A stretch of 64,000 nt of DNA. Source: Sipunculus nudus. Taxonomy: Eukaryota > Annelida > Sipuncula > Golfingiida > Sipunculidae. Shown here piece by piece: positions 4,864-44,134 of the stretch. Under the pieces are notes generated by a model, which saw only the letters and a program-made list of their open reading frames with translations, was not told the origin of the DNA and searched no databases. Both the position numbers and the translations under genes were made by a program. Each line of letters starts with the position of its first letter. Positions within the stretch are counted from its first letter, which is position 1. The stretch spans positions 78,640,142 through 78,704,141 of the forward strand of contig CM049306.1 in NCBI GenBank assembly GCA_026874595.1, in the 5' to 3' direction.

Positions 4864-4897
<34 letters not shown>

Positions 4898-20300: not shown

Positions 20301-23300
20301 ATGCAATAACAGTTTGGTCCTACGGCATAATGTACTAAATCCTGGTATAAACAACATACAAATTGTGCAATGTCCCATGGCACTGATTCCTCTTATGTAC
20401 AGATCCCTTTCGGTCAAACATCAGGGGGACTTGAAATCCTTGTATATGCAATAACAATTTGGTCCTACGGCATAAAGTACTAACTCCTGGTATAAACAAC
20501 ATACAAATTGTGTATTGTCCCATGGCACTTATTCCTCTTATATACAGATTCCTTTCGGTCAAACATCAAGGGGACTTGAAATCCTTGTATATGCAATAAC
20601 AATTTGGTCCTACGGCATAAAGTACTAAATCCTGGTATAAACAACATACAAATTGTGTATTGTCCCATGGCACTGATTCCTCTTATGTACAGATCCCTTT
20701 AGGTCAAACATCAGGGGGACTTGAAATCCTTGTATATGCAATAACAATTTGGTCCTACGGAATAAAGTACTAAATCCTGGTATAAACAACATACAAATTG
20801 TGTATTGTCCCATGGCACTGATTATTCTTATGTACAGATCCCTTTCGGTCAAACATCAGGGGGACTTGAAATCCTTGTATATGCAATAACAATTTGGTCC
20901 TACGGCATAAAGTACTAAATCCTGGTATAAACAACATACATATTGTGTATTGTCCCATGACATTGATTCCTCTTATATACAGATCCCTTTCGGTCAAACA
21001 TCATGGGGGACTTTAAATCCTTGTATATGCAATAACAATTTGGTCCTACGGCATAATGTACTTAATCCTGGTATAAACAACATACAAATTGTGTATTGTC
21101 CCATGGCACTTATTCCTCTTATATACAGATTCCTTTCGGCCAAACATCAGGGGGACTTTAAATCCTTGTATATGCAATAACAATTTGGTCCTACGGCATA
21201 ATGTACTTAATCCTGGTATAAATAACATACAAATTGTACAATGTCCCATGGCACTGATTCCTTATATATAAAACTTCTTTACGATCAAACATCAGGGGGA
21301 CTTTTAAATTCTAGTATATACAACGACGATATGGTGCTTCGGCAAAGGTATTAAATCCAGGTAAAATAACATACAAATTATGGAATGTCCCATGGCTCTA
21401 ATTCCTTTTATATACAACTCCCTTTCAGTCAAATATCACGGGGACTTTTAATCCTGGTAAATGCAACAACAATATGGTCCAGCGGCATAAGGTACTAAAA
21501 GGTGGTATAAACAACATAAAAATTGTGCAATGTCACATGGCACTGATTCCTTATATAGACAACTCAATTTTGGTCAAACATCAGGGGACTTAAATCCTGG
21601 TATATGCAACAAGAATATGGTCCTACGGCGTAAGGTACTCAATCCTGGTATACATAACATATAAATTGTGCAATGTCCCATAGCACTCATTCCTTTTATA
21701 TACAACTTCGTAATGGTCAAACATCAGGGGGACTTTTAAATCCTGGTTTATACAATTACAATATGGTCCCACGGCATAAAGTACTAAATCCTGGTATAAA
21801 CAACATACAAATTGTGAATTGTCCCATGGCACTGATTCCTCTTATATACAGATTCCTTTCGGTCAAACATCAGGGGGACTTGAAATCCTTGTATATGCAA
21901 TAACAATTTGGTCCTACGGCATAATGTACTTAATCCTGGTATAAACAACATACAAATTGTACAATGTCCCATGTCACTGATTCCTTATATATAAAACTTC
22001 TTTACGATCAAACATCAGGGGGACTTTTTAATTCTAGTATATACAACGACGATATGGTGCTTCGGCAAAGGTATTTAATCCAGGTAAAATAACATACAAA
22101 TTATGGAATGTCCCATGGCTCTAATTCCTTTTATATACAACTCCCTTTCAGTCAAACATCACGGGGACTTTTAATCCTGGTAAATGCAACAACAATATGG
22201 TCCAGCGGCATAAGGTACTAAAAGGTGGTATAAACAACATAAAAATTGTGCAATGTCACATGGCACTGATTCCTTATATAGACAACTCAATTTTGGTCAA
22301 ACATCAGGGGACTTAAATCCTGGTATATGCAATAAGAATATGGTCCCACGGCGTATGGTACTCAATCCTGGTATACAAAACATATAAATTATGCAATGTC
22401 CCATAGCACTCATTCCTTTATATACAACTTCGTAACGGTCAAACATCAGGGGGACTTTTAAATCCTGGTTTATACAATAACAATATGGTCCCACGGCAAA
22501 AGGTACTAAATCCTGGTATAAACAACATACAAATTGTGTATTGTCCCATGGCACTGATTCCTCTTATATACAGATCCCTTATCGTCAAACATCAGGGAGA
22601 CTTTAGATCCTTGTATATGCAAAAACAATTTGGTCCTACGTGATAAAGTACTAAATCCTGGTATAAACAACATACAAATTCTGTATTGTCCCATGGCACT
22701 GATTCCTCTTATATACAGATCCCTTATCGTCAAACATCAGGGAGACTTTAGATCCTTGTATATGCAATTACAATTTGGTACTACGGCATAAAGTACTAAA
22801 TCCTGGTATAAACAACATACAAATTGTGTATTGTCCCATGGCACTAATTCCTCTTATATACAGATCCACTATGGTCAAACATCAGGGGGACTTTAAATCC
22901 TTGTATATGCAATGACAATTTGGTCCTACTGCATAAAGTACTTAATCCTGGTATAAACAACATACAAATTGTGTATTGTCCCATGCCACTTATTTCTCTT
23001 ATATACAGATCCCTTTCGGTCAAACATCAGGGGGACTTTAGATCCTTGTATATGCAATAACAATTTGGTCCTACGGCATAAGGTACTAAATCCTGGTATA
23101 AACGACATACAAATTGTGCAATATCCCATGGCACTGATTCCTCTTATATACAGATCCCTTTCGGTCAAACATCCCGGAGACTTTAAATCCTTGTATATGC
23201 AATAACAATTTGGTCCTACGGCATAAGGTAATAAATCCTGGTATAAACAACATACAAATTGTGCAATGTCCCATGGCACTAATTCCTCTTATATACAGAT

Positions 23301-25675
23301 CCACTATGGTCAAACATCAGGGGGACTTTAAATCAATGTACATGCAATGACAATTTGGTCCTACAGCATAAAGGACTAAATCCTGGCAAAAACAACATAA
23401 ACATTGTGTATTGTCCCATGGCACTGATTCCTCTTATATACAGATCCCTTTCGGTCAAACATCAGGGGGAATTTAGATCCTGGTATATGCGATAACAATG
23501 TGGTCCTACTGCATAAAGTACTAAATCCTGGTATAAACAACATACAAATTGTGTATTGTCCCATGGCACTAATTCCTCTTATATACAGATCCACTATGGT
23601 CAAACATCAGGGGGACTTTAAATCCTTGTATATGCAATAACAATTTGGTCCTACGGCATAAGGTACTAAATCCTGGTATAAACAACATACAAATTGTGCA
23701 ATGTCCCATGGCACTAATTCCTCTTATATACAGATCCCTTTCGGTCAAACATCCGGGGGACTTTAAATCCTTGTATATGCATTACCAATTTGGTCCTACG
23801 GCATAAGGTACTAAATCCTGGTATAAACAACATATAAATTGTGCAATGTCCCATGGCACTGATTCTTCTTATATACAGATCCCTTTCGGTCAAACATCAG
23901 GGGGACTTTAAATCCTTGTATATGCAATAACAATTTGGTCCTACTGCATAAGGTACTAAATCCTGGTATTAACAACATATAAATTGTGTAATGTCCCATA
24001 CCACTGATTCCTCTTATATACATATCCCTTATGGTCAAACATCAGGGAGACTTTATATCCCTTGTATATGCAATAAAAATTTGATCCTAAGGCATAAAGT
24101 ACTAAATCCTGAAAGAAACAACATACAAATTCTGTATTGCCCCATGGCACTAATTCCTCTTATATACAGATCCCTTATCGTCAAACATCATGGAGACTTT
24201 AGATCCTTGTATATGCAATAACATTTTGGTCCTACGGGTTAAAGTACTAATTCCTGGTATAAACAACATACAAATTGTGTATTGTCCCATGGCACTAATT
24301 CCTCTTTTATACAGATCCACTATGGTCAAACATCAGGGGGACTTTAAATCCTTGTATATGCAATGACAATTTGGTCCTACGGCATAAAGGACTAAATCCT
24401 GGCAAAAACAACATAAAAATAGTGTATTGTCCCATGGCACTGATTCATCTTATATACAGATCCCTTTCGGTCAAACATCAGGGGGACTTTAGATCCTGGT
24501 ATATGCGATAACAATTTGGTCCTACTGCATAAGGTACTAAATCCTGGTATGAACAACATACAAATTGTGTAATGTCCCATACCACTGATTCCTCTTATAT
24601 ACATATCCCTTATGGTCAAACATCAGGGGGACTTTAAATCCCTCGTATATGCAATAACAATTTGGTCCTACGGCATAAAGTACTAAATCCTGGAAGAAAC
24701 AACATACAAATTCTGTATAGTCCCATGGCATTAATTCCTCTTATATACAGTTCCCTTATCGTCAAACATCAGGGAGACTTAAGATCCTTGTATATGCAAT
24801 ATCAATTTGGTCCTACGGCATAAAGGACTAATTCCTGGTATAAACAACATACAAATTGTGTATTGTCCCATGGCACTAATTCCTCTTATATACAGATCCA
24901 CTATGGTCAAACATCAGGGGGACTTTAAATCCTGGTATATGCAATAACAATTTGGTCCTACGGCATAAGGTACTAAATCCTGGTATAAACGACATACAAA
25001 TTGTGCAATGTTCCATGGCGCTGATTCCTTATATATACAACTTCTTTACGATCAAACATCAGGGGGACTTTTAAATCCTAGTATATACAACGACGATATG
25101 GTGCTACGGCAAAGGTACTAAATCCAGGTAAAACAACATACAAATTGTGTATTGTCCCATGGCACTAATTCCTCTTATATACAGATCCACTATGGTCAAA
25201 CATCAGGGGGACTTTAAATCCTTGTATATGCAATGACAATTTGGTCCTACGGCCTAAAGGACTAAATCCTGGCAAAAACAATATAAAAATTGTGTATTGT
25301 CCCATGACACTGATTCCTCTTATATACAGATCCCTTTCGGTCAAACATCAGGGGGATTTAGATCCTGGTATATGCGATTACAATTTGGTCCTACTGCATA
25401 AAGTACTAAATCCTTGTATAAACAACATACAAATTGGGTATTGTCCCATGGCACTAATTCCTCTTATATACAGATGCCTTATGGTCAAACATCAGGGGGA
25501 CTTTAAATCCTTGTATATGCAATAACAAATTGGTCCTACGGCATAAGGTACTAAATCCTGGTGTGAACAACATACAAATTGTGCAATGTCCCATGGCACT
25601 GATTCCTCTTATATACAGATCCCTTTCGGTCAAACATCAGGGGGACTTTAAATCCTTGTATATGCAATAACAAAA
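17330..25675. repeat. Satellite array, unit about 145 bp, roughly 50 copies
   Basis: The core unit contains 'ggtcaaacatcagggggact', 'aaatccttgtatatgcaata', 'atttggtcctacggcataa', 'aaatcctggtataaacaaca' and 'gtcccatggcactgattcct'. Copies before about 18430 are strongly diverged; from 18430 to 25675 they are regular. The repeated 75-residue minus-strand frames are 145 bp apart, so each copy changes frame; they are not a gene. The array ends about 0.7 kb past the 3' end of the megasynthase. Confidence 0.93.
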
Positions 25676-26382: not shown

Positions 26383-26515
26383 TCAGATCATGGCCATCAG
26401 TATTTTTCGTGGTCCCGTGAACGATCTTCTTCCATGAGCAACCAAGTAGTTGTCTACCAGGAGCAGGTCTCCTTGCTGCCATGGAAACACAACCTCGTGC
26501 TGCTTCAAAGTCTCT
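26383..26515 (-). CDS. Megasynthase terminal coding exon: C-terminus of SyrP-like dioxygenase
   Basis: 133-nt exon found by hand in a stretch with no long open frame. The acceptor is a pyrimidine-rich run ending ATAAACAG|A at 26516-26519; AG from exon 3 plus this A makes Arg 4508. It encodes [30 protein letters not shown] and [13 protein letters not shown], then TGA at 26383-26385. This is the family's standard ending: WQxGD, the DN-x-x-x-x-HGR block with the distal iron-binding His (4535), and an Arg (4544) placed to bind 2-oxoglutarate. It lies 3.46 kb from exon 3, so automated gene models may miss it. Confidence 0.9.
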
Positions 26516-29500
26516 CTGTTTATGAGAGGAGAACTCAAATGATAAAAGCTGTTTGGTTCATCACAGTTGGTAAACGATCTAGCTCTTAAACCAGATAATC
26601 AGTTACATAGGGTTGTAGTAAATAAGTCAAGTCAGCAAATGTGTTAGACATTAGGAAGAAGACCTACAGACTTAATGCAAACCTATGCAATGGGATAAAC
26701 ATCATGCTTCCTTTCCGGACCGTTACTATCAGGTACATGTGTGACATGTATATGTACAATGAAAAGCACTGAACATTTTTAACCCGAGTGCATGCACCAA
26801 TTACACAAACGTCACTGTTGAAATACTTGCATAGGTACACACGACACAAAAATGAATGTGAGTGGCACCATTAGTCTTGTGTACGAGAATGTCATTAAAG
26901 ATGTATTGACATAAATAATTTCAGGCTTCAAACAACTCTTCGGCTATGTGCACAGATGCATGAAACAACTATATGCAGGACTCGTAGTCTAAAGCGACTA
27001 CGCGTAACCGCTGATATCAGAGTAGTAAAGATGAAGTAAGGAATGGCGTAGGTGGTAAGGGGAAATAGTATGAGATGGATGTCTGCCACGTAAACATGAT
27101 TGATCAATACCGCAAATCAATCCTGCAAAAAGGGCATTAAGTGGAGCCACCTATCTGGTTTACGAATACACTTTCCAAGATGGACGATCATGCCATATTT
27201 CAGACCATTACCTTGACCTACTCCTGAGATCTGAACAATTTTCACCAAAAAGAATATGTACGAATAGATGCCACGGGTTTAAACGATTGAAAATAGCGAA
27301 ACCAGTCTTGGGAACAAGAGGGAAGAGTCAAAGATCTATAAATATGCACAATTTCATGCCGATACTGCAATACACTCCTGGGAGAAGGGCATTAATTCCA
27401 TGAAAACTAGAAGCTAAGTGGCACTTCCTATGTGGTTTTGCATGCAAACTTTCCACGATGGATGAACATGCCAAATTTCATAACAATACTTTGTACTCAC
27501 CAGTACACGGTGGAGGAGCCAGAATCTATGGATATGCATAGTTTCAGGCAAATACTGAGAAACGCTCCTGAGAAAAATGCATTCATTTATTCTAATAAAA
27601 CGGAAAGGTAAGTGGCGCCAACTGTCTGGTTAACTAGAAAAATCTCAGGATGGCTGAACATTCCAAATTCAGACCAATACCTTGACCCTCTGCTAAGATG
27701 TGAGCAATTTCACCCAAAGCACCCGTCCAAATAGACGCCAAAGGAAAACGATTGCAGACAGCGCCACCAGCCTTAAGTATATGATGAAGGAGTCCAAGAT
27801 CTATGAATATGCACGATTTCAGGCCAATACTGCGAACCACTGCTACAAAAAGGGACATTTATCTATTCGAAGTAAACGGAAAGGTGGGTTGCGCCAACTG
27901 TCTGCTTGACAAGAAAACTATGTAAAATGGATGAACATGCCACATTTCAGACAGATAACTTTGAAATAAATTTTCCCAATACGTAATGCTTTCATCGGAC
28001 TTTTTTTTCTGATAAGAAATTATAAACATGTCATAAAACTATTGTAGATGCATACTGAATTCAAAATTATGAGTATGGATACATATTATTTATTATCCAT
28101 GTACAGCTAACTTTATACAGCCACAGAGAGCTTAACAACCATGAATGGTATCATTAACCTGGTACGGTGACTAATGTAATTAATAAATCTATTTTTTAAA
28201 GCCTTTGGAAATCATTCTTGTCAATATTACCAATAGATAACCTGAAATCTAAATTTCTAGTGGCTTGATGAAAAAGATGTTGATAATCTGATGCCATGCT
28301 AGATGTAACTGCTTTATACTGCTAACATTTATGGTAAAATGATTCTATTCAATCATCATACTTTAGCCAAAATCATCCATGTGGAACCATTAAAGACAAT
28401 TGTTATAAGAATTATTGCTGAGATTATTTTTGTAAAATATTAAACAAATTGGCTTCGGTGGCATCTGTCGAAAAAGTTTTGCAGGTCTATAACTCATATA
28501 GGAAAATACAGCAAACTGGCTAAGTTCAGCTTCCTGTAAATCAGCCAAAAATTACTAAACCAAGACCATTTGAACAAACATGAATTATCAACATTTGAAG
28601 ATAATTCATATTTAAATTTAAGAATTTGGTCACGTGTTTTTTTTTTTTTTGGAAGATCTTTTAGCCACTGAGCTAAAATAGGCTCTGAAGGAATATGAGT
28701 AATTCAGCTTCCCATAACTCAGCCAAAAGTCACTGAACACAGGTCATTTAAACAAACTTATAAAGCATCACCCGAGGATCATTTCCTGGTGATGTTTACC
28801 AATTTTGCTACATGCTTTCAGAGAACAAGTTTTTGTAGCCTACAATATGATATGGGCACCGATGAACCCCGTACCAAAACAGGGCTGATGCAGGTGGCGC
28901 CACCAATATCCCATTGGCATAAAATTTTGGTGATGAAAGCTCCAGCCATCTCTGCGATTGTAATTTTCGAATGCTTAATGACTAAGTTCAATGTCCTGTA
29001 ACTGGGCCAAAAGTCACCGAACTGGAAATATTAGAAAGAGATAGTTTTGGGAATCTGTTTCGGAGAAAGGGTTTTAAGCCTTTTTTCCTATAACTTTTTC
29101 CATATAAAAGTTAATGCAGATACCTTAAAAATAAGTTTAATCCGATAAAGTTTGACATGGGACTGAATCTTACATACAAATTGGAGCGGATAGCTCCGAC
29201 AGTTTCTGAGATAGTATGTGTACGGACAACGTTGACGGCGGACGGACGACGCGGCGCAATCGCATCAGCTCACGGGTTCGCTAAAAATACCAATATATCT
29301 AAATATAACAGTATTCCAATGCGACTGCCTTATCATCTTGTCGTGCACAAATGACCATAGGTATCTCATTAACCAAACTGAAGGATACAAGGGCAGGAAT
29401 CATACCAAATAATTCTAATGCCGCTGTTATGCTGCGCCTTAAGCGTTTTATGTCTGAGTCACTTGCAGCCGTATAACTGTAGGTGTACATTAAATTTGGT

Positions 29501-32500
29501 GTGGATACCGTCGGGAAGAAAAAGTACTTTTAGCCATAGATAAGACAAAAGAGTAAAATACAGAAGCATTTACACCTTATATAGCAAATTAAAAAATCAT
29601 AAAACATCCTTATTTATTATATGACTCCCATATTCCAGAATGGTGCTGAACGAATGTGCGAATTATAGGAAATTAAAAATTAAATCTTATATTTGTTTCA
29701 TCCTATGAAAACTGTAACACGTAACATCTTTTTGGTGAATAAAGTTTTTTACGAATGGCGTGGCGTGTGATCGAAACATCAGAAGACTTACAGGAATGCA
29801 GTTTTTTTTTTGCATATCTTGTCATTTATAACGTTTCGGCGCTCAGATAAACAAGTTATTTTTCAAATACGTCTGTAATAAAACAGACATGGAAATGTGT
29901 GAAAATATGTTTTCACGAAAAGGGCATCAAATAATAATGCACAATTATTCTTTAATATTGCTTTCAAAACCAACCTTATATGGGAGATGTGTTCTTCAGG
30001 GATGTGGGAACCATCAGCGTAGGTTACGAATTTCTGCATGTCTTCTGGGTCCAGCAGTGACGTCATGACCGTCGAGGTCTCAGCTGGCTGACCTGAAGGG
30101 TGAAAGAGATGGGCGTGGTTGAACCAGACCGTCGCCCCAGTTTCCGGATGTTTGCGGGTTGGGGGAAACTTCCTTTCCGTGTGGAGGGTCCCATCATCTT
30201 TCCATCGCCAAGTAACATTACTTCTGTTCAAGAACTCTTCTACCTCAACCGAACTGTCAGTTCCGAATGTGTCTTGCCAACTCTTGCCTGAGAATGACAG
30301 ATTTAACACAATAAGTGAATTGATAGTGTGTATATATCTCTGAACATTAATATTTGTTTTATTAATATAGGTATCTGAATAAATTTGAATTATCAATTTT
30401 TACTAGTTAAATTATCATAAAGCAGTAACTTTTATAACATTTTTAATAAAATATATGAGTCCCGGTTAAACATATAAATTTTTTAATATCTCTTAATCTT
30501 ATGTTTGATTTTAGTTTTTACCATTTACCATTTTACCAGGTAATTTCGTATGATCTTGCATTCAAATCTCGTTTGAGTTTTGATGAAAGAATATATTAAT
30601 ATGTAGTGCAAAGACTTACAAAGCCCGTATCCTCGCGACGGGGAATTAGTGATATATCGAAGGCCTTTCGTCTCCATTGATTGCCGGATATCTGGTCGGA
30701 TTGCTTCCAGGACCTTTTGGGAGTCGGCAATGGACGTTTCTCCTCCACATCCTACTCCCGGTGGAGTGTAACAGAAGAACAGAAGCTTTCTGGGTGGGGT
30801 TGAGGTGTAGGACATTTCGTTATGGACCGCCACGTCATAACGGCTGGGATATTCGGTAGATGTAAACACGTTGTTTGTGACGTACGTCCGTGGCGTTATG
30901 CCATCTTTATAGTCAGTTCTGGCGCCTTCTTTTCCGCTCAAAGCTACAGTCATTCTAGAGAAGTCATCCGGTGTGGCCATACACCAGTCCCTGAAAAGCA
31001 GCGCTCCCTTTTGCCTCAGAAGAATGTTGACTGCGTGTCTCTGATCTGGGTAACTCTGGAGAAGTCCAACTAAATCTTTTGATGACTCAACCCCTGGCAT
31101 CAATACATATGGAAAACTTGGTGCCGCGGCAGAAGTACATTCGAAATGAAATTGATTGGTGATATTTCTAGGCAGAGTTTTCAAAGAGGTCATGGTGCTC
31201 CCACCTGCGATGTGGCTGGCAAATTTAACACAGGTGTTGTAACGTATTACATCATTTATCGAAACTTTCTTTCTCAGCCGTTCACTAATGCGTGACGCAA
31301 GTGTTATAGCTTGCAGTGAGTCAAGCCCCATATTTTCAAATGTTTCATTTTGCTTCCTGTCTAAATTGGTTCTATCCAACATCAACAGCTCCGACAAAGT
31401 TGTCATCACAACTTCTGATATCATTGGAAACTCCGTAGACATGCTGGAAACAGACTCCTTGGGCTGGGAGGATTTCATGAACTGTAAAGAAAGTGACGTT
31501 TCCGGTCTGGGAGCATTAACGAATGGATTTGTCATATCTGACCTGCTGTGGTCTGCCTTGGATTCATTTATTAATATCTTTTCCTGGACCAAAGTTTCAT
31601 GATGTACGTTGGCCTGGTAATTCAGTGCATCCGGTCGCACAACATGACCAGTCCATAGCTTCAGTACATCTTTAGTAATCAAGGGCCTTTCCCTTTTCAC
31701 TCCAATCATTTCTTCTTCTTTATCCAGCAAGTCAAGACACCCCTCTCCAAGCACGACAAGCTGAAGAGGCTTTTGCAGGGCGGTGTTACACATGATCGTG
31801 ACGGCTGTTTTATTATTCAAATTTGTTCCAACAAAGCAAGTACTGCTTGGAGTTGCCCCAATGCTCCACCTTATATCCCCATCTGACGATCGAAACATAT
31901 ATCTCTTCACACTGGAAACTGCCTGTTTCAAGGTCTCGTCACGTGAATGATGATCTGAGGGTAATTCCCAATTGGCCATTAGCCGAATAAATGCACACAT
32001 ATCCTGCACTGAAGTATAAATCCCATCAGCTGGAAGCAGTCCTTCCTCGCATTCAAACAAGGGCACTCTGTGACCTTCTGTGTCAAAGCTACCTGGAGAA
32101 GATTGAAGTGATTTTACTGTCCATTCGGCGGATGTTGACTTCATATGCAAAGACTGAAAAATGTGTTTGGCCACGAGACACGCATATCCGCACCCTGTGA
32201 TCCTAGCAAGAGCGTGTCCTAAAAGTGAGATACCAAATATGCTTATACTACATTGCTTTCCAGGCGGAAAATGCAAATTGCTCTTTGATAAAGCATTTAA
32301 AAGCTGCAGCGAACTGTATTCCTCAACTGTGTCATCCTCGCTTTCGGTACAGAAATTAGGTGGCAGGTTAGGCAGACCTGATGTGTGAGTTGCTAAATGT
32401 TTTAACGTAATAGTTTGCATGGGACTTGGCACAAATTCACGTATTTCGGGGAACACCTGTATCAGTTTAGTTTCCCTCTCCACAAATCCCTGATCAGAGA

Positions 32501-35500
32501 GTAGGCTGTGAAGAGTGAGCAGAAACAATGAAGAAAGACAGCCTATTGGATACACGCAATTTTCATCCGGCGAATCTACGTGCTGAAGTGTGGAACATTT
32601 GTCAATCCTACTAGATCTTTCATGATTGCTATGACCGAATCCAAAGTGAGTTGTTTTTCCACAACTATTGATTAGACTTACATTCAAGCCAAAGTTCTGA
32701 TGTGGAACTCCGAGAATGTCACCCACTAAGCTGTTCACCTTTTCATATTCTTCTTGCTGCTTATTGGGTATTTCTCCGGTATCGCCATCAGTCTGGGTCG
32801 ATGCATCTGTTCGCCTAATACCTCTCAAATTCGGTATGGGTTTCTCTATCCTTTCACCAACTGTTTCTCTTTTAGGAATCATACACGTCTTCTGGCAAAA
32901 TGGAAAGAGTGGCAAAGAGGTGATTTGCACATTATCCTCCTCAGCAAACAAATGGTCGAAATGTATTTCAACACCTTTGCACCATAGTGAACCCAGGGCC
33001 TCAGTTATTCCTCTGGTGATGTTAGCATCCTTCAAAAGAGGAAATGTGTTTGACTCAGGATAACACTGCTTTACCATTGAACAAAGCGTTTTGCCAGTGC
33101 CAAGTTCAATAAACAGGGTATTTTTTTCAATAATCTGACTGACAGCTTCTGTAAACCTCACAGTCTCTCGGACATGTTTCGCAAAATACCCTGGCACAAT
33201 CTCAGTAATCCATGTACCCGTCATGCTCGATATTAAAGGTAGTTTTGGCGTAGACAATGACAACTTTTCCTGTACCTGTTCTATTTTTTGCATCACAGGA
33301 TTGACTAGATGCGAGTGGAAAGCATGCGAGGTGTTTAGCAGCTTAGTCTTTATTCCTGACAACTTGCACAATTCTTGTACAGCTTCTATATCTCCGCATT
33401 GACCGGACACGACTACTTGTGATGGACTGTTGATGGCGGCAATATCTAAGTCAGCTGATATCTTCTCTATTAGTTTCCTGGTTTCAGTTTCCCCTGCATT
33501 AACAGCTAACATGGAACCCCGGACTGACAGTTTCCGGAACGTTTGCCATCGTGTCACTAGAAGTGACAGGGCATCTTCAATTGTTAAACACTCCGCAAGT
33601 GTAATGGATACAATGTCACCTACACTATGCCCAAGTAAGGCAGAAGGCTTGCAACCCATTTCCAAGAGAGCCTTACCTGTACAGTATCCAATTATAAAAA
33701 GGCACAGCTGGGCGTAGGCAACTTCCTTATCTTTGTTTACTTCAGCCATGATTATACTTGACACATCGATCCCGTGCCTGCCTTTGAGGATATCAGTTAT
33801 ATGTTTCATATGGCGTCCAGCGGATGGCATTGCTAAAGAAAGCGCTTTGCCTATTCCACTGTATCCGGTACCTTGTCCAGGGAATAGGAAAACGACATAA
33901 GGACTAGAGGGACATACGGACATTTCTTGATGAAGGCGTGTTTGGTTAAGTTTGGTTAACCATTCGCTTGCTGAAAAACCGCATACTGTAATTCTGTTTT
34001 GGAATGACTGACGTCCTGTTGCTAACGTATATGCTATGTCACCAAGTGAAGCAGTGTTGTTGGAGTTTGAAAGGAACTGTTCCAGTTCGCATATTTTATC
34101 ATTCAATTGTTCTTCCGTCGGAGCACTTAATGGAAGCAACCAACATTTTCTACAATTCATTGCCACATCAGAGTTTTTTCTCTTGGCCGACCTTAGTACT
34201 ACATGAACATTTGTACCGCCTTGTCCAAACCCGTGCACTTCCGCAGTTACATGTTTCCCTCCGTGTTTCTGGTCTATGTTTACTGCTTTTGTGTTGACGA
34301 TAAAAAGCGTTTTCGAGAGGCTGTCTGTTTCCTCTGGAAAATCCGTAAAATATGGACACGGTGGAATAACGCCATTGTACAAGGCCAGACTAGCTTTGAT
34401 GAAGCCAGCAACACCCGCACTAGAACCAGTATGGCCTATTAAGCCTTTGACAGATCCCAAGTGAATGGGTGTGTCGTTCTGTGATTTGTATGCATTTGCA
34501 AGAGCTTGCATTTCCGTGAGATCACCAAACAATACGCCTGAACCATGAGCCTCGACAAAAACAGGGTGGCCTTCGGTAAAACCTGCATCATCCCGGGCTG
34601 CTCGGACAACAGCAGTTTGTTGGGTGAGGTTTGAGGCGGAATAGCTAATTTTATTCCATCCATCATTATTCAAAGCTGAGCCAATAATATGTCCATATAT
34701 CCTCCTTCTTGAGTTTAATGCTTGCTCCGAGGACATCATCACAATGACACCTATCCCGCAGCTTCCAACTGTGCCGTCTGCGGACTTGTCAAATGGGCAG
34801 CAATTCCCACTAGGGGATGTTATCATGCCGTTTTGGTGTACATAACCTTGCGTTTCTGAGCAAGCTAAATCAACTCCACCAGCCAAAGCTATGTTACAAT
34901 CTCCAGACTGGATGGCCCTTCGTGCCATGTGGATGGCGGCTAGAGAAGAAGCACAGGCACTTTGGATACATAGTGCTGGCCCAGTTAGACCTAATTTGTA
35001 TGCAACAAGAGCGGGTGCTGTGTCTGGTAAATTGTTTCTTAAAATATTATAAATGTCAGCCTCGTCAAACGTATTAACATCGGGATCAGTTAAATGACCC
35101 TTCATAAGAACATTATCTTTATAGATATTTTCCCCGACGCCGATGAATATCCCGATTGTCTCAGAGCAATAGTTTGGAATAATACCAGCGTCCTCCAGGG
35201 CATGATATGAAACCTGCAAGAGTTGTCGATGCTGGGGATCTGTAAGTGCACTCTCTCGAAAGCTCATTGAAAAGAATTCATTATCAAATGCAAACTGGTT
35301 CTCTATGTGACCTGATACAGGAACAAAAAACTTCTCATTTGAAACCTTCTGTTTACTGTTCTTAAAGACTGTACTATGTACTGCGAGACATGAGGTTCCA
35401 GAGACTATATTCTCCCAGAATTCTTCTGCATTATCTGACTTTGGGTATTTACAAGCGATTCCAACCACAGCAATTTCACATGTTCTATTACCAAGGTCAC

Positions 35501-38500
35501 CATCTGCAACCGATGGTTGTAGATATGGTTGAACACTTTCCAGACGTCCTGAAATCATATGTGCTTGTTCTGAAATGGTTTTAAACTGAAATAAATCAGC
35601 GACTGTGACAGTCACCCTAAAATGTTCTTCTAGCTGAACCTTTAAAGGAAACAGACTTAATGAACTGCCTCCAAGTTCAAAGAAACTAATGCCATCATCT
35701 CCTTCATCAATGTCCCTACTGAGCACATTCCCCCAAATGGCTCGTACACCAACGGCACAGCTTGCCTTGGAACTTGAAGTCTTCATGAGACAGGAGCTAT
35801 GGTTGGGCTGAACAGAAATCTTTGCTAGTGCATTAGAATCGACTTTTTGACTCAGAGTAAGAGGGAAATTTTCGACCAAAACAAAGCGTGAAGGAATCAT
35901 ATGTCGTGGTAGACTATCTCTGCAGTGCACTGAAAGGTCTCTTGGGGGAATTTCATTGTTCTCACTTACGTAGAAAGCAACAAGTTCATGCTCATTGGAT
36001 TTGCTTGCGTTTTCCATTGACATAACATGAACCTGTAGGATCTGCGGGTGACGAAGTAAAACCTTACCCACTTCATGTGTGTCTACCCTGTAACCATGGA
36101 TCTTTACCATGCCATCCTCTCTTCCAATGTAGTGTATGCATCCGTCAGCGTCCATATTGACCAAATCACCAGTGTGGTAATACATGGCACCGTCCTCATA
36201 AGCAGTCAAGCGCTCCTTTGTTAGAACTGGCTGATTCAGATACTCTGTCAGTAGTCCCTCACCACCTATCCAAAGTTCCCCAATAAGACCTAACGGTACT
36301 GGTGACCCATACTTGTCAACAATCTGTAATAAACAACCAGGTACCGGCTTTCCGATTTGTGCATTAAATGGCTCATACCCAGCAAGGTTGTGCATTGTGC
36401 TAATACACATGGCCTCTGTCGGGCCATAGACATTGAAGAATCGTCCAGGATATTTTCCTGTAGAGAGCACCTTGTTTATAGTAGTCTTGCATGCCTTTTC
36501 TCCGCCCATGGACAGCACCTGAACAGACTTGAACATTGCTGGATTATGAGATGCCAGAAAGTTAAATACAGCTGTTCCAAGAACACATATATCAATTTCA
36601 GCCTGATGAAGCAGGGTCTCAAAGGCAAGGGGCGACAGCAGGTCAGACTGCTCAACCATAACCACCGTAGCTCCAAACATAAGGGGCATCCAAAAGTCTA
36701 AGAATGTTGCATCAAATCTGAAACTATTGATTTGAGCAACTTTACTGTCCCTCGTCATTTCAAACTTTGAGTTCAATGCATGTAAACGTTGGACAACTGC
36801 TTTGTTTGACAAACTTACGCCCTTAGAAGTCCCCGTTGTGCCCGATGTATATATGTAAGCAAAGGGGTTCACCAAGTCGATGGCCACCGCGTTTACCGTT
36901 TTCGGGTGTTGTTCGTATTCAATTAGATCCATGTCTTCCATATGATGCAAGGATAATTCGGGGATTATTCCCAGCGCTTTTGATCCAGCTAGGTCTACAA
37001 ATACAGTTTTGCAATTGGTATCATTCTTAATGAACAAAAGTCTCCCTTCCTCTTCTGTAGGATCCATATAGACAAACGGTTTGCCACTCAAAACAATACC
37101 GACCATGACAATGGTTAACTCAATTCCCCTGTTCATGCAGACACCGATGATGGACGTGGGACTTCCTGTGCTAATAATATGGGATATCATGGCAGATTTA
37201 TCGTACAAGTCACCATAGCTGATTGATTTATCTTTATTTATGACAGCAACGGCATTAGGTGCTTCCTTGAATGTGGTTTTCAGTTGGTCAGCATATGCCA
37301 TGAGATTTGTGTGTTGATAAACTTGCGATTCGGAACAGTGTTGTTTGTATAGGTCACCTGAAACCAATGGCAAACTAATCCAAGGAGGGGAAGTAGATTC
37401 TTTCAATGCTGCTTTCAGGAATTCCATATACCCTTCTCCAAGTGAAGTGATCACGTCTCGGTGGAACATGGAGTCATCATACGTGATTGTGCCAGTGATG
37501 TTACCTTTCCCTTTTACCTGCTGAAAGTCCCAACTTAGGGGATTTTTGCAGCATTTCATATCACGTTCAATATTCACAATGTGTCCTTTCAAAAATCCCT
37601 TTGGCAGAAAGTCATCCACTTTCATTTCTGTAAAATTAAACATAACTGCAAGCAGAGCGTCTGCTAGTTCGCCTTCTCCAGGGTCAACGGCAGTCCTCTT
37701 TCTTAAACTGCTAACTATATCAGAGAGTGATATTTTCAAGTGAAGTGAACAAGCCAACAAGTTTTGCAGAACCGTTTTAGCCAAGTCACAAAATGACTTC
37801 CGTCTATTCATTCCAAAATTTGTTCTGACAGGAAATGTCCTAATGTTTGGTCCAATTCGTAAATTTGAACAGCCGTGTGATCTTGTTGAAAATATTACCG
37901 CTACGATAATGTCATCCTGGCGAGACGTTTTGCAGAGGAGACATTTGAGGACCGTTAGCAACACAGAAGCAGGAGTTAGTTGGTGAAGGTTGCAAAATGC
38001 CATCATTTGTTCTGTTAGTTTCTCGTCGAAAGGTAAAATGATAACGCCTCCCGTGCCGTTCAATGTCGTGGGTTGGGTTGCATATGGAAATCTGCAACGG
38101 CAAAGCGACTTGCTGACATATTCTCAAATTTACGAATGCAGTACTGTTGCAGCAAAATCGTGGTATGACTAGTCATGGTTTCTCCTTAGAAGCAAATATA
38201 TGCAAGCTATTATAATTTTTTCACGGTTTTATTTTATTTTAAATCATCATTCTACATTTCTCATTTTAAAAACAACAGTAGCTTTACACAAGCTGTATAC
38301 TAGTTTTTACAATTTGATCACGGGTATTTTTTTTAAATCATCATTACAACATTTCTAATTAAAACATGTAGCAAGAGGTTGGAGAGAAACACTTACTGTA
38401 ACGGTTGCATGCCTTGCAGGTTTTCAGTCCAGAAGTTTATGTCGGCTTCACCGTTAGGATTGTCCATTTCATTCCCTGCCTGCAGTAACTGAGGACTAAC

Positions 38501-41500
38501 AGATTCTAAAATTGGAGATTCTTCAATATCTGTTTTTATCAGGACATCTTCATACAGGCACCACAAGTCCCTCATAAGATATATAACAGAATCAGCGTCT
38601 GCTGCAATATGGTGTATGACAACTGAGAATATCTGTTTCTTGATTCCACTTTCACAAAAGTCAAATTCGTACAAATGAAAACGAATAGGAGAAGCAGCTT
38701 CAAGATCAAACGGTATATGAATGTCCCTAATAACTTCCTCTGGTACCGTTCTATCGGCTGTGTATTTGTCAATCCTAGTAACACGAAAACATTCTTCCAG
38801 TTCTATCTCAGGAATTTCTTCCATTATTAGCGCATCGTCTTTCAATTTATATCGCACTCGAAGCACCATGTGCTTCTGCAGAAGTCTCCTGATTGACAAC
38901 TTGAGCATAGCTTTTTCAAGTTCCCCATCCATCTGTAAAACAAGTGGAATATTGTATCGTGGAGAATTCGGTAGCTTCTCGTGTTCCAAAAACAATTCTT
39001 GCTGCAAGGTTGTTGTGTTACAATAAACATGAGGTGGTTTCAAATCATAAGCTGCTTTGAACGTTTCTTCATTTGCGGTGTCAGCTCTGACTTCGCGTTC
39101 TTTAGGTAGGAAGCTTTTACTCACAAATTCTTCAATGTTAGTACATGTTAACAGCTGAAGAGGTTTTAGTTCCAGACCCAGCTGGCTCTGGCAGATTGAT
39201 GAAATTTTCACAGCTAATAGTGAGTTTCCACCATTTTCAATAAACCCTAGATTGAAATCTACACACTTGCCAAAACATTCTCGTATCACTCTTTGTACTT
39301 TATTGTGCTGATATACTGGAGTCTCCAAATAGCTGTCTAAATGAGAACATTCAAATCCAGAGTATTTAAGCTTGTGCCTATCGATTTTCCCAACCATGTT
39401 CACAGGAAAATAGGACGTAGGGTTGATGTAAGATGGGACTGCATGCGATGGGAGTTTATGTCTCAGTGTTTTCCACAGATTTTGAGCATGGAATTGTGAT
39501 TCACTGTTCACCAGAACATGTAGACCTATTTGATTTTCTCCGTTTCCATCTTTAGTTATCACTGCTACTGCATCATCTATCGCTTGATATTTAATTGCAG
39601 CACTTTCTACTTCTCCTAACTCAATTCTGTGGCCCCTTATTTTGACCTGGCGGTCTTTTCTCTCCAAAAACAGAATGTTGCCGGAAATATCCCTGACTCC
39701 AATGTCTCCTGTTCGGTAAAGCATTCCTTCTCCCGTCGGATCAAAGCAGTCAGGTACAAATACACGTTTCGTTTTTTCGGATAGGTTATGGTAACCATCT
39801 GTAACACCTATTCCCCCAATAACGATCTCCCCAGGAACTCCAGGCGGCACGAGCTGCATGTTATCATTCACAATATAAATGGTTGTATTCTCAAGTGGAT
39901 TTCCCAGAAAATTCCTAATACATTTGTCCTTTGAACTGAATGTGTGAGAAAGTGCATAAATCGTGACTTCTGTTGGACCATAAAGGCTCTGAAACGAACC
40001 TACACCATGTTCTAGCACCTTTCTAACTTTGTGTTCGTTAGGCTTTTCCCCTGCGATGAATAGATATTTCAATCTCGAGAAGACACCACTGATGGCATAA
40101 TCAGATATAGTGTGGAATAGGGCTGTCGGGAGGCACATCATGGTCAAATCCAATTTCTTGATTGTTTGAATGTATGCATTTGAAGACGAGAGGAGCGTGG
40201 TATAATCAATGAGAACAAGGGTTGCTCCATTTGTAAGGCTGGCGTATAAATCAAATACAGCCATATCAAAACTGAATGAACAGCTCTGGCCAACCCTATC
40301 ACCTACATCTAGGTTGAAGTGTCCAGCTTTCTTTACCCTTCCCACAACACATTTGTGAGTAACACACACACCTTTTGGGTTTCCAGTAGATCCGGAAGTA
40401 TATGTTATGTAGCACAGATCGGACGGCTTGTTCCTGGTGTCGTATGGATCAGGGCCAAAATCACATTCAGAACTGTTATCATTGTCAGTTGTAACTACCA
40501 ACTGCTGTCCTTCATAGTTCCACAAATGCTTTATGTCCTCCGTTAGAACAACCGCTGGTTTCAGGTCTCTAAGAATGTACATTATCCTATCGTCTGGTAA
40601 GTCTGGATCTATATAGACATAGTAGCAGCCGGCAAAGAGGCTTGCGAGACAACAGACCACCGTGTTCACACTCTTATACATCAAGATCCCAACACATTTC
40701 CTTTCTGTAATGTTGTGTTGCAACTGCTGGCGCAGTCGCCATACTCTGTTCAAAAGATTGGCATATGAAAAACTTTGGAGGCCATGCTCAAGGGCGATTG
40801 CATTTGGTGTCTTCTTGACTTGTTTGAGAAAGAGGGAATCAAGTGTGGAGGGAGTCGGTAACTCTGCGTGTGTTTTTCTCATGTGGTGTTGTAACTTAAT
40901 TTTCTTATTTTCTGACAGAATGTCTATGCTTTTATATGGTGTGTCCAAGTCGCAGCTGCTCCGGATGATAAAGTTCACCCAATGTTCAAGGAACCCTTCA
41001 ACAAGCCAGTGAGGAAATAGGGACTTTTTGTAGGAAAGGGACATGGAATATACCCCTTTTTCTTTCACATACGAAACATTGATTTCAAGATCATTTTTCG
41101 TCTCAGCTGGGTATACTTCAATAGGCTCTGCACTTTGGTGAGGATGAACATCTAATGCATTTTGGAATGTAAATACAGTTTTCACACTTTCAAAATGCGT
41201 CTTCCTGTCCGAAAGACTAGAGACAAGCCTTTCATATGGAATGTAATATTCTAACATTTGCTGAAACGCATCCTTTGTTCTCAGTAATAGAGTTCGCAAT
41301 GATGGGTTTCCGTCAAATCGTAATCGAATGACGGATAGATCAGCAAAGAGGCCAACGGAAGACATAAACTCTGACAGTGTCCTGTTTGCTGTGGTCACAC
41401 CAAGGATAAGGTCATTTGTGTTGTTATATGTAGACAGCATTGCCCCTAGTGTAGTTAAGAAAACAAGATTTGGGGTGACGCCGATGATTTTCGCCATTTC

Positions 41501-44134
41501 TTCTAGTCTGATGGTTTGTTCTACTGTGAGGGAACCATGTATCAATCCCGCAACATTAGGTGGGTTGCAACTGACTGAACTCTCGCTGAAATGTGCAGGT
41601 AGACTAGCTGGAAAGGAATCTTCCATTTCTGTTTCCCAGTATTCTTGTCTCTTTTCAAATTCTACACAACCTTCACTATACACGTAACTACAGAAGCCGG
41701 CATATTTTTGGTACTGGCTGTTTTCTGTCGGGTTTAACCTATGGTCTGATTCTTCACCTGACAATCTGGAGATGACTTGTTTAATAATCAGACCAATGGA
41801 TGTACCATCACATATGATATGGTGTGCCGCAACGCCTAAATAGGTGTTGCCCTTGTTTGCAGTATATATGCTGAATTTGATCAAAGGTTTCCCAGAAAAT
41901 GGATCAAATTCTATTTCTCTCATGTGCGCTTTTATTGCCTCCTCGTTAACGTTAGAAATACATGAAATAATTTGATAACCTCCTATCGTTCCCTCTGAAG
42001 CATCCACGGTTAGATATCTTCGCATAAAGCTTCCGTGACTGGCAGCGTAGTATGAACCTGCAACATGTCTGTTCTCTTCACAGATGTCCATAATAACTTT
42101 TGAGAATGCACTGCTGCAGAAGCTGGTTTTCAGTTTATAAAGATTCAGGACATTGTTGGCTGTACCTTTTGGATGCATCACTTGGTGTAAAAGAATTCCT
42201 TGTTCTTGAGGGCTGACTGCCGCGGTTGCTAAATAAGCATTGGTTGTATTGGAGGGGTTACTGACTGAACAGGCGGAGGGTTGGTCAGTGTTGCTGTAGT
42301 TCTTTACATAGGCACATAGCTCATCAACAGAACAATCCTGAAGAAAGAATGACACTGGAACCACCACTGAAAATTCTGATTCAATTTTTGCATACATTTC
42401 AAATGCCAATAAGGAATGGCCGCCTGATCTTAGAAAAGATCTATCAACTTTCCCGCCGGTTCCTAGTTTGTCTGTCCAAATTTTGTGCAGTACAGAAACA
42501 TCCCTTTCGTAATTCTTCTCACTTGAGTTACCTTCTGTGGTAGTCTTATCAATTGTTTCTTCTATAAGAGCAGCCATTTTCTTTCGATCAAGCTTGCCGG
42601 AAGACATCTTTGACAAAGTTTCAACTGAATAGAAGGTGTTTGGTATCATATACTGAGGCAAGTATTTACTTAAGACTATTCTTAGTTCTGTCTCAATTTC
42701 TTTGTCAACAACCTCAAGTTGTTTGTGTTGCCAATTCTTGGTATCCTGAGAAAATTGTAATAATGCACATATTTTCACAGATTCTGCTGATCCTATTGTG
42801 GCAACAACTGCTTCTGAAACTAATATACTCTTTCTCAGCACATCCTCAATTTCATCCAAATTCACACGATTTCCCCTCACTTTTATCTGCCGATCATTTC
42901 GCCCAATACAGAACATCCGCCCGTCATAACTTCTCTTTACAAGGTCTCCTGTTCTGAAGTAACGAGTGTCGTCTATAGTAATGTACTTCTTGTTTGTTAA
43001 TTCCGGATCTTTTACGTATCCACTACTCAAACAAATGCCTGATACATAGAGGTGATAATTGTCAATGCCATCTTCAACTTCAAGACGGATACCTACATTG
43101 TCAATAGGTCTACCGATTGGTATCATCACATTTGTTGTGCAGTCTTCTTTGCTGACTACATGAAAGGTTGCATTAAACCCAGACTCTGATGAACCATACA
43201 AGTTCAAGAGAGTGCATTCTGGGGCTAGTTCTAATACAGACCGCGCAGTGTTAGAGGATAGGGACTCTCCACTGGACACCATTATTCTGAGATGTTCTAG
43301 CAAGTTGATGTTATCGGCTGTATCAAAATATGGAATCATTGCGTTCAACATGGTTGGGACCAGCACCAACCGTGAGACCTTGTTTGCATGTGCATGTTTG
43401 AGAAGAGCTCGTGGATCGGAGGAAATACGTTCTGGTATAATAACTGTTGGGATCCCCTGAATAAGACCACCAAACATCTCCCAGTAGCAGTCAGCAAATG
43501 CAACAGAGGTCTTGAATGCTATTCTTTCATCAGTGTGAAATGGAAAAGTAGTCCACATCCAGTTGAACATATTATATACACTCTCCCCTGTCACAATAAC
43601 GCCCTTGGGTTCAGCCGTTGATCCAGAGGTGTACACTATTGTCAATGGAGTACCCTCTGAGTCGTTGTTGGTAGTCGATTGGTTTATTACCGGAGACGAA
43701 TGAATAGACCTGTCTTTGAGTGCATCATGTAGACTGATGACCCTATATGCAGACTGCGTAGAGGTCAGCGTATTTGCCCTTTGAGAGGTTAACACCAGAG
43801 TGGTATCACAATCCTGCAACATGATTTGCACTCTCGCCTGAGGCAGAGTTACATCAATAAGCAGGAAAGTAGCGCCTACTTTCATGGCGGCAAGAGCGGA
43901 AGCAATCATTTCAACTGAGCGGGGCATCATGATGGCAATTACGTCGGTTTTTTCATGCTGGCCTAGCAGAGGTTTCATTACTCTGAGGCACCGTTGATAC
44001 AACCGGCTGAACTCTTCATACGTCACTTCCTGTCCACTGCACTTGATGAAGGCCGCTCCCTCCGCTTTTACTTTACAGACATCCTCAAAGAGCTCCACGA
44101 GTTGACGTCTCCCATCCATTTTCTTGGCTGCCAT
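26383..44134 (-). CDS. Hybrid NRPS-PKS megasynthase with pseudo-beta-lactamase and SyrP-like dioxygenase domains
   Basis: Assembly-line enzyme for a peptide-polyketide small molecule. The CDS joins 44134-38397, 38091-30620, 30287-29975 and 26515-26383 (13,656 nt, 4551 aa plus TGA). Every junction keeps frame and restores a motif. Domain order with residues: A1 20-525, T1 540-615, C1 635-1080, A2 1095-1590, T2 1605-1675, C2 1700-2165, A3 2175-2665, T3 2685-2760, KS 2783-3210, AT 3310-3615, beta-lactamase-like 3720-4035, T4 4130-4205, SyrP/TauD-like dioxygenase 4235-4551. There is no signal peptide, so it is probably cytosolic. The T domains would need a phosphopantetheinyl transferase encoded elsewhere. 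Start chosen at 44134 because that ATG has A at -3 and G at +4 and lies just after a TTTTTCAG acceptor-like site; an in-frame ATG at 44164 is the alternative. There is no thioesterase or reductase. The catalytic motifs of the carrier, C, KS and AT domains are intact, so the gene looks functional. The exact product is unknown. Confidence 0.93.
26516..29974 (-). other. Intron 3 of the megasynthase gene, with dispersed repeats
   Basis: 3459 nt from GTTGGT (29974) to AACAG (26516). It holds a copy of the composite repeat seen again at 55.2-58.3 kb. Its left part (27115-27965) is a degenerate tandem repeat of roughly 200-280 bp, recognised by recurrent 'gccacctatctggtt'-like and 'gaacatgccaaatttca'-like segments. 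No additional coding exon was recognised inside it. Confidence 0.8.
26640..29292. repeat. Composite dispersed repeat, copy A (in intron 3)
   Basis: It shares ordered segments with 55.15-58.30 kb in the same orientation: first 'acctacagacttaatgcaa', then 'gtcttgtgtacgagaa' with gtggcaccat, later 'cttcccataactcagcc' and 'agtcactgaac', then a (GAC)-rich tail ending cgcatcagctcacgggttcg. It has no coding capacity that I can see. The copy here lacks the 180-bp tandem expansion present in copy B. Confidence 0.7.
29975..30287 (-). CDS. Megasynthase coding exon 3: middle of SyrP-like dioxygenase
   Basis: 313-nt exon bounded by TTCTCAG|GC and AAG|GTTGGT. The split codon T+GC gives Cys 4404, so exon 2 ...GYGLC continues as [12 protein letters not shown]. 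The exon contains [20 protein letters not shown] and [16 protein letters not shown], segments typical of the SyrP/TauD family (HP-x-TGE-x-VWFN and the xDGS-x-I motif). The donor is GTTGGT rather than GTAAGT, so it is weaker, but the phase match with the last exon is exact. Confidence 0.9.
30288..30619 (-). other. Intron 2 of the megasynthase gene
   Basis: 332 nt from GTAAGT (30619-30614) to TTCTCAG (30288 is its last base). Joining across it creates one Cys codon and restores the dioxygenase sequence. Confidence 0.9.
30620..38091 (-). CDS. Megasynthase coding exon 2: second half of C2, A3-T3-KS-AT-pseudo-beta-lactamase-T4, start of dioxygenase
   Basis: Open for 7472 nt. The acceptor is TTGCAG|A at 38092-38094, and the first base completes a Gln codon begun in exon 1. 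The resulting sequence runs smoothly from [13 protein letters not shown] into [10 protein letters not shown], the linker expected in the middle of a condensation domain. The first in-frame start-like codon downstream is only a TTG, so this exon is not an independent gene. It ends CTTT|GTAAGT in the first third of the dioxygenase domain, after the iron-binding HNE motif. It encodes residues 1914-4403 plus parts of the split codons at each end. Confidence 0.93.
31215..31442 (-). other. Terminal carrier domain T4 (ACP type)
   Basis: [23 protein letters not shown] gives a PKS-style GLDSL phosphopantetheine site; the Ser codon is at 31317-31319 (residue 4171). It follows a low-complexity Ser/Pro-rich linker (about residues 4085-4130). 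It is the last carrier of the line and sits directly before the oxygenase, which may therefore act on the chain bound here. Confidence 0.88.
31725..32672 (-). other. Degenerate serine beta-lactamase-like (PF00144-type) domain inside the PKS module
   Basis: About 315 residues between the AT and the last carrier domain. The fold signature is clear: [14 protein letters not shown] near the start, [36 protein letters not shown] (family hallmark TH-T-SGLP), PPGKQ...[11 protein letters not shown] and [14 protein letters not shown]. The catalytic residues are not conserved: the SxxK motif reads C-L-S-S (3764-3767), with Cys for the Ser nucleophile and Ser for Lys; the YxN motif reads I-S-I (3862-3864); and the final HxG/KTG motif is not evident. 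It is therefore a pseudo-enzyme, or a domain using a different chemistry from normal family members. Its role in the assembly line is unknown. Confidence 0.8.
32985..35483 (-). other. PKS module KS-AT
   Basis: Ketosynthase with the full triad: Cys 2959 in SACASS, His 3095 in EAHGSG and His 3133 in [12 protein letters not shown], plus DPQHRQLLQ. It accepts the peptidyl chain from T3. The acyltransferase has [11 protein letters not shown], the nucleophile in GHSVG (Ser 3402) and HAFH (3502-3505); HAFH at this position usually marks malonyl-CoA rather than methylmalonyl-CoA use. No ketoreductase, dehydratase, enoylreductase or methyltransferase follows, so the added unit should stay a beta-ketone unless an external enzyme changes it. 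Confidence 0.9.
35550..39037 (-). other. Third module C2-A3-T3, split by intron 1
   Basis: The condensation domain has HHIAADA (1841-1847), with Ala for the usual final Gly, and is interrupted by the 305-nt first intron. The adenylation domain has [27 protein letters not shown] and a C-terminal QKVD Lys motif. The carrier domain has LGGSS (Ser 2723). The A4 region reads F-D-A-T-F-L, so Asp235 is conserved; hand-aligned pocket residues are D, A, L, A, S, G, V, C, I and K. The intron excludes any reading of this locus as a bacterial operon. Confidence 0.86.
38092..38396 (-). other. Intron 1 of the megasynthase gene
   Basis: 305 nt from donor GTAAGT (38396-38391) to acceptor TTGCAG (38097-38092). 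AT-rich with stops in all relevant frames. Removing it restores a continuous C2 condensation domain, which is the main evidence for it. Confidence 0.9.
38397..44134 (-). CDS. Megasynthase coding exon 1: A1-T1-C1-A2-T2 and first half of C2
   Basis: Open for 5738 nt without a stop, encoding residues 1-1912 and two bases of codon 1913. It carries the loading module, the complete second module, and C2 up to just past its HHxxxDA motif (residues 1841-1847). The exon ends CA|GTAAGT, a consensus donor; the open frame stops at TAA within the donor itself, which is why the C2 domain appears broken unless spliced. A TTATTTTTCAG acceptor-like string at 44151-44161 suggests that a 5' untranslated exon lies upstream. 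The unbroken length is unusual for an animal gene. Confidence 0.93.
39110..42232 (-). other. Second module C1-A2-T2
   Basis: Condensation domain with intact HHIICDG (residues 771-777) for peptide-bond formation. It is followed by an adenylation domain with [33 protein letters not shown] and VGKIDRHKL, and a carrier domain with GGNSL (Ser 1638). The A4 motif reads F-D-M-A-V-F, so the alpha-amino-binding Asp is present and a normal alpha-amino acid is expected. Hand-aligned pocket residues are D, M, F, A, F, A, L, I, Y and K. I do not predict an amino acid from this. No epimerisation or methylation domain is present. Confidence 0.87.
42290..44077 (-). other. Loading module A1-T1
   Basis: Adenylation domain with the P-loop motif [12 protein letters not shown] (about residues 168-179), [22 protein letters not shown] and the catalytic Lys in SSGKLDRKK. 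The carrier domain has GGHSL with the phosphopantetheine Ser at 574. No condensation domain precedes it, so it starts the chain. In the A4 region the usual F-D-x-S-x-W reads F-A-D-C-Y-W (213-218): the position equivalent to GrsA Asp235 is Ala. My hand-aligned pocket residues are A, D, W, M, V, S, L, F, N and K. In known A domains loss of Asp235 goes with substrates lacking a normal alpha-amino group (aryl, hydroxy, keto or beta-amino acids); applying that here is inference. Confidence 0.85.

Follow-up and report, generated by a model that had tools for sequence, protein, structure and literature searches.

A spliced, chromosome-embedded hybrid NRPS-PKS gene with a beta-lactamase-like insert and a fused TauD domain

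Two giant frames (1933 and 2532 codons) plus two small exons on the minus strand of the window raise the question whether they form one host gene for a hybrid NRPS-PKS assembly line, of which type this assembly line is, how long it has been resident in its genome and what it would make. The window is the whole stretch of 64,000 nucleotides that was analysed, i.e. 78,640,142-78,704,141 of a 110.9-Mb contig within an assembly of 1.43 Gb and 153 contigs.

Gene model and domain order

A KS search of the genome revealed four long-frame copies in tandem on one contig, i.e. the window copy (W) and the copies D, A and B, and tblastn with the window protein found the same exon order in all four. Joining the exons of the window copy in phase across three GT-AG introns (Table 1) results in a protein of 4551 residues followed by a single terminal stop, which is the length claimed in an earlier note on this DNA. 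For intron 1 an alternative acceptor at 38112 is likewise in frame and leads to 4558 residues; we favoured the acceptor at 38091 because its TTGCAG is kept in 4/4 copies and matches the spacing of a paralogue on contig C3, and this choice gives the length of the earlier note. Introns 2 and 3 retain their splice dinucleotides in every copy that was aligned, which means W, D and B at exon 3 and the intron-2 donor and the full set of four at exon 4, and their flanks are partly alike among the copies. Splicing is thereby predicted from the sequence and from conservation among the tandem copies, and chance is excluded as the source of the frames and domains. The N-terminus is uncertain, since the proposed start ATG at 44134 is ATA in copy D and ATT in copies A and B, whereas all four copies retain two other in-frame ATGs, one lying 10 codons upstream at 44164 and one 5 codons downstream at 44119 (positions read by hand). 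TTTTTCAG/GATA just 5' of the start could alternatively serve as a splice acceptor; comparison of the window copy with A and D found no upstream coding exon kept in either within 9 kb. Elsewhere in the window, satellite arrays lie 3' of the gene (8791-14088 and 18704-25673; units of 222 bp x24 and 145 bp x48), additional arrays occupy 56742-57683 and 58796-59938, and an open frame of 164 codons at 4781-5275 is without any match in Pfam.

Table 1. Exons, introns and domains of the window gene, with positions counted within the window
Feature	Position	Strand	Details	Basis
Exon 1 (coding)	38397..44134	-	A1-T1-C1-A2-T2-C2 first half	frames, Pfam
Intron 1	38092..38396	-	phase 2, GTAAGT...TTGCAG, inside C2	
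Exon 2	30620..38091	-	C2 second half-A3-T3-KS-AT-[beta-lactamase-like]-ACP-TauD first part	
Intron 2	30288..30619	-	phase 1	
Exon 3	29975..30287	-	TauD middle	
Intron 3	26516..29974	-	phase 2, holds dispersed host repeat	
Exon 4	26383..26515	-	TauD end with distal His (AHGRR), stop codon	
A1 adenylation (initiating)	42560..44107	-	Ala at Asp235 place, Asp one place on	
T1 carrier	42299..42517	-	GGHSL	
C1 condensation	40880..42229	-	HHIICDG	
A2 adenylation	39365..40843	-		
T2 carrier	39125..39337	-	GGNSL	
C2 condensation	37401..39067	-	HHIAADA, split by intron 1	
A3 adenylation	35811..37313	-		
T3 carrier	35541..35768	-	GGSSL	
KS-AT	32781..35483	-	QSACASS Cys, EAHGSG and GHTG His, GHSVG Ser, HAFH	
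Beta-lactamase-like region	31521..32783	-	PF00144 profile 44-251 of 329, CLSS at SxxK	
ACP	31206..31493	-	GLDSL	

Pfam on the joined protein bears out the claim of a spliced hybrid NRPS-PKS-dioxygenase gene with the order A-T-C-A-T-C-A-T-KS-AT-[beta-lactamase-like]-ACP-TauD. Above the cut-offs are three AMP-binding domains, two Condensation domains (one split by intron 1), four PP-binding stretches, ketoacyl-synt N and C, Acyl_transf_1, Beta-lactamase and TauD; exon 3 on its own has no Pfam match, and Pfam detects neither a TE or reductase nor a terminal C domain in the window protein. Core motifs are found in A1-A3, T1-T3, C1, KS (Cys, two His), AT (Ser, His), ACP and TauD, and the A, T and C domains follow each other in C-A-T order as in modular NRPSs, with the exceptions of the Asp235 place of A1, the HHxxxDA of C2 and the last core motif of A3, which is QKVD compared to GKxD in A1 and A2. 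The earlier note took the carrier, condensation, KS and AT motifs to be intact throughout: this stands for T, C1, KS, AT and ACP but not for C2, which carries HHxxxDA instead of HHxxxDG. As HHxxxDA is also present in copies D and B and in the C3 paralogue, it represents an inherited variant and not a newly arisen defect. The PKS part consists of one module of the type I modular kind, with KS Cys-His-His, AT Ser/His and ACP Ser, and these catalytic residues are kept in all four tandem copies.

In A1, the alignment places Ala where ordinary A domains have Asp235 and an Asp in the next place, for which we assume the numbering 235/236; its first signature pattern is without match in 4/4 copies, and several other signature patterns are unmatched too. 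Its further code positions, read by eye as W, V, V, S, L, F and N, presumably resemble the beta-alanine code VDWVISLADK, and HAFH in the AT we take to be a sign of malonyl. The TauD domain joined across the exons matches its Pfam profile with 3.5e-40 and shows the iron ligands HNE and AHGRR (HxE...H), with a PDB match to At3g21360 (4.4e-36). The term SyrP-like thus agrees with the profile and the HxE...H signature at the level of the TauD family.

Host location and type of the KS

The claim that the spliced gene is host-encoded agrees with its place on a 110.9-Mb contig and with a repeat inside intron 3, for which 7740 first-look candidates exist in the genome, 40 of them, when scored, giving 100 matches on 14 contigs; being dispersed over many host contigs, this repeat excludes contamination. 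Condensation-domain matches (n=29) are distributed over C1, C3, C4, C7, C8, C9, C11, C13 and C14 with 0/29 on bacterial-looking contigs, several of the matches being weak and perhaps belonging to other families. The C3 paralogue, found by tblastn and C-domain search, has the order A-T-C-A-T-C, is 34% identical over 1963 aligned positions and has an intron whose position agrees with that of intron 1 to within a codon and whose phase is identical, as read by hand from the DNA. The intron therefore probably predates the split of the two genes, and the gene family is probably old. Upstream of this paralogue (3117-3548 of its locus) we observed a frame of 144 codons in which GDVETNPGP, presumably a 2A-like ribosome-skipping motif, comes after a hydrophobic stretch. 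A further NRPS-like locus (C8:72884001-72894000) is spread across several frames and probably broken, and two TauD-like places elsewhere in the genome (L120, L121) have no match to the window protein.

The earlier note had called the enzyme animal-type, which does not hold for its KS-AT. The best PDB sequence matches of the KS-AT are modular PKSs such as CurL, which we take to be bacterial (416 bits and down), fungal PKSs rank below these, and 0/50 PDB sequences under 1e-60 are named fatty acid synthase. A pattern search of genome contigs yielded at least 594 stretches and 339 relatives, of which the best 80 loci, all bacterial, were kept; these are 31-35% identical. In 71/80 of these loci an A domain lies upstream of KS-AT on the same strand, in 59/80 within 900 bases, which is the hybrid position and marks the window KS as being of bacterial hybrid type. 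Compared to the host's own FAS/AFPK-like KS places (n=7; 27-39% identity over 56-266 residues, best 79 bits), the ten best bacterial KSs among the matches listed reach 264-281 bits with 36-40% identity, so by this comparison to host places the window KS is not of the animal FAS-like PKS (AFPK) kind.

A KS tree points in the same direction: the window KS and two copies group with bacteria, i.e. with KSs that follow A-T, and apart from two host FAS-like rows, their branch measuring 2.25 changes per column; the sister row is L104, with a support of only 81. The tree was made with a quick method and SH-aLRT from 100 rows, matches spanning <220 residues being dropped, and includes further KS domains of the loci and two host FAS-like fragments. 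As the bacterial rows were picked by likeness to the query, it shows type and not source.

Two origins other than an old resident gene have to be weighed against these data. Bacterial DNA of a symbiont or contaminant misassembled into the host would fit the bacterial type of the KS-AT and the presence of bacterial-looking contigs in the assembly, but it is at odds with the 110.9-Mb contig, the three GT-AG introns, the dispersed repeat in intron 3, the four tandem copies, the C3 paralogue with the same intron and the distribution of condensation-domain matches; we rejected it on the contig, the repeat and this distribution, and consider its probability negligible. A recent horizontal transfer of a bacterial cluster would likewise explain why the KS groups with bacterial KSs and apart from the host FAS-like KS, yet a KS identity of 36-40% to the ten best bacterial rows listed, the branch of 2.25 changes per column and an intron common to a 34% identical paralogue make it very improbable. 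The sequences are compatible with an old horizontal transfer.

As for the bacterial-looking contigs themselves, those between C60 and C89, also C123, carry FabF and COX1 genes in a number of near-identical versions, which looks as though more than one strain of an associated bacterium had entered the assembly. Apart from these contigs, the COX1 search matched one short fragment on C5, and no mitochondrial contig was recognised. A search of the assembly for RuBisCO found none, the control being matched in 5/14; molluscan haemocyanin and AMO likewise had no match, with their controls unmatched as well.

Tandem copies and the beta-lactamase-like insert

The window copy is the only one of the four that is open throughout (4551 codons). 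A2 is broken by a one-base frameshift in copy D and by a different frameshift in copy A; copies A and B have further shifts in common, located in exon 3 and in the part of exon 2 that encodes TauD; and copy B additionally shows HLxxxDG in C1 and SGLT in the A1 core. Diverged copies have dN/dS values of 0.24-0.39 in three segments, calculated on open segments only (for copy A, residues 1-1222 and exon 2; per domain, exon 2 only). Copies A and B agree by 99.8-99.9% over the compared segments, and their dN/dS values of 0.70 and 0.10 are uninformative since they differ by just 0.1-0.2%. Identity between W and B is 0.879 for residues 1-1222 and 0.955 for residues 1223-1912, both in exon 1; this patchiness suggests gene conversion between the tandem copies.

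The insert between AT and ACP matches PF00144 with 5.7e-22, and its best PDB matches are beta-lactamase-family hydrolases, the best with 1e-9. The catalytic SxxK of serine beta-lactamases and PBP-type thioesterases is missing, reading CLSS in 4/4 copies, and the two other active-site motifs are not recognisable and were, by eye only, judged lost. The dN/dS of the insert is 0.45 for W-D and 0.26 for W-B, compared to 0.31 and 0.65 for AT and 0.28 and 0.28 for ACP, so that the insert is under constraint despite its catalytic stripping. For a PKS module, a conserved insert of this kind is an unusual component.

These data bear on two further explanations. The frameshifts in D, A and B imply that the locus may be decaying, and together with the HLxxxDG and SGLT of copy B they would agree with a tandem family in decay in which the window copy is open by chance and no product is made; we regard this as rather unlikely, given a window copy open over its full length, the dN/dS of the diverged copies, and the listed catalytic residues being kept in D, save the beta-lactamase-like ones. 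The insert, in turn, could be an active fused PBP-type (SurE-like) thioesterase with a Cys nucleophile which releases the product, as the PF00144 match, the Cys kept at the place of the catalytic Ser in all four copies and a gene without any other release domain would allow. PBP-type thioesterases are described as stand-alone enzymes, having a Ser/His/Asn/Lys tetrad in addition to a lipocalin-like domain (PMC11735501). Judged by this description, SurE-type thioesterases are, like the insert, kin of penicillin-binding proteins and beta-lactamases, but the insert is fused and has lost its SxxK. With Ser at the place of the SxxK Lys in 4/4 copies, the remaining active-site motifs not recognisable by eye, and the top PDB matches being beta-lactamase-family hydrolases (best 1e-9), an active thioesterase is improbable.

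Relatives, proposed product and meaning

No locus with the same domain order was found among the 80 bacterial loci kept as the best of the 339 relatives, the flanks being of unequal length. TauD lies within the fetched flanks in 8/80 loci (30-38% identity), in 6 of them downstream of KS-AT, and occurs in two plasmid matches from Variovorax and Nostoc. Comparison with the closest parallels shows NRPS parts followed by KS-AT in the Variovorax and Nostoc plasmids (L026 and L027; TauD 33-34% identical to that of the window) as well as in Colwellia (L080; TauD 34%) and Aquimarina (L081; TauD 30%). TauD is separate in Nostoc, Colwellia and Aquimarina and located behind a C domain in Variovorax, whereas it is fused in the window gene, and the three modules scanned, i.e. 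those of Variovorax, Colwellia and Aquimarina, have a KR where the window gene has the beta-lactamase-like domain. Beta-lactamase-like matches were obtained in 2/80 loci, and in 0/80 within 1.5 kb downstream of KS-AT; this search by tblastn with the degenerate window domain is a weak test that may miss divergent ones. In L039 and L103 such matches lie near bacterial NRPS-PKS genes, outside the PKS module. Among plasmids, no single place covers 80% of the protein of exon 2 (2432 records with a match), and the beta-lactamase-like domain is matched in 58 records; among the eight of these records that were listed, the annotation is serine hydrolase in seven and absent in one.

Hybrid NRPS-PKSs are already known from nematodes and rotifers; for the domain order of the window gene we found no description among the top-ranked open-licence papers. 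The nemamide synthases PKS-1 and NRPS-1 of C. elegans are animal-encoded and combine PKS and NRPS modules (PMC8363725). Judged by the accessible description, they include beta-alanine among their amino acids and have divergent A domains, consist of two proteins with a TE domain on each and a named KR, compared to one protein in the window, and neither TauD nor a beta-lactamase-like domain is among the domains named there (PMC8363725). Bdelloid rotifers possess eukaryote-encoded hybrid NRP/PKS clusters of bacterial style, most of which fall into a clade of their own, separate from other metazoan copies, and show enrichment towards chromosome ends; the order of the window gene is not named in the accessible text (PMC11258130). 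Suring et al. 2023 reported NRPS genes in Lottia, Modiolus, sea stars and a brittle star; these mollusc and echinoderm genes lie on short scaffolds with doubts about contamination, in contrast to the chromosome-embedded window gene, and the accessible text describes neither a hybrid nor a domain order for them (PMC10531068). Were the host a mollusc, their clade could be where the window gene family belongs. For mollusc genomes, validated bursatellin-oxazinin clusters are reported (PMC12833800). The earlier note knew of no described animal enzyme with this order, and among the top-ranked matches in the open-licence literature we found none either.

Taken together, we consider it somewhat probable (roughly 0.55) that the gene is a host-encoded assembly line of bacterial type, long resident in this eukaryotic lineage, which makes an oxidised product of a tripeptide and a malonyl unit. 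This reading is supported by the domains and motifs, the host location, the exon order of the four copies, the kept splice sites, the dN/dS values, the KS, AT and ACP catalytic residues kept in all copies and the likeness of the KS-AT to modular PKSs; it is weakened by the frameshifts in D, A and B, the HHxxxDA of C2, a release domain not being found and the unpredictable substrates of divergent A domains, as noted for the nematode enzymes in the accessible text (PMC8363725). In the model we propose, A1 would load an initiating acid, possibly a beta-amino acid such as beta-alanine, onto T1, and C1 and C2 would add two alpha-amino acids, A2 and A3 not revealing which. KS-AT would then add one malonyl unit and, as there is no reductive domain, the product would be a tripeptidyl beta-ketoacyl-ACP. 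The C-terminal Fe/2-oxoglutarate oxygenase (TauD) may hydroxylate or otherwise oxidise this ACP-bound chain, and the beta-lactamase-like domain, at the usual place of reductive domains, may be kept as a structural or docking pseudo-domain. For release, the amide nitrogen between the second and third amino acid could attack the thioester to form a five-membered tetramate without a classical release enzyme; alternatively, a hydrolase could act in trans.

A wider picture is tentative and less probable: an old animal-resident hybrid family, at one time taken over from bacteria, may make an oxidised, beta-amino-acid-primed peptidyl tetramate or open beta-keto acid, with a dead beta-lactamase-like scaffold having replaced the reductive part of the PKS module, and tandem expansion on a single chromosome having been followed or accompanied by partial decay. 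Should the host be an animal, a hybrid gene that is embedded in a chromosome, bears introns, exists in several copies and retains most catalytic motifs would lift the doubt about contamination for this genome, and would predict a metabolite, as yet undescribed, with a minimal skeleton defined well enough to be searched for.
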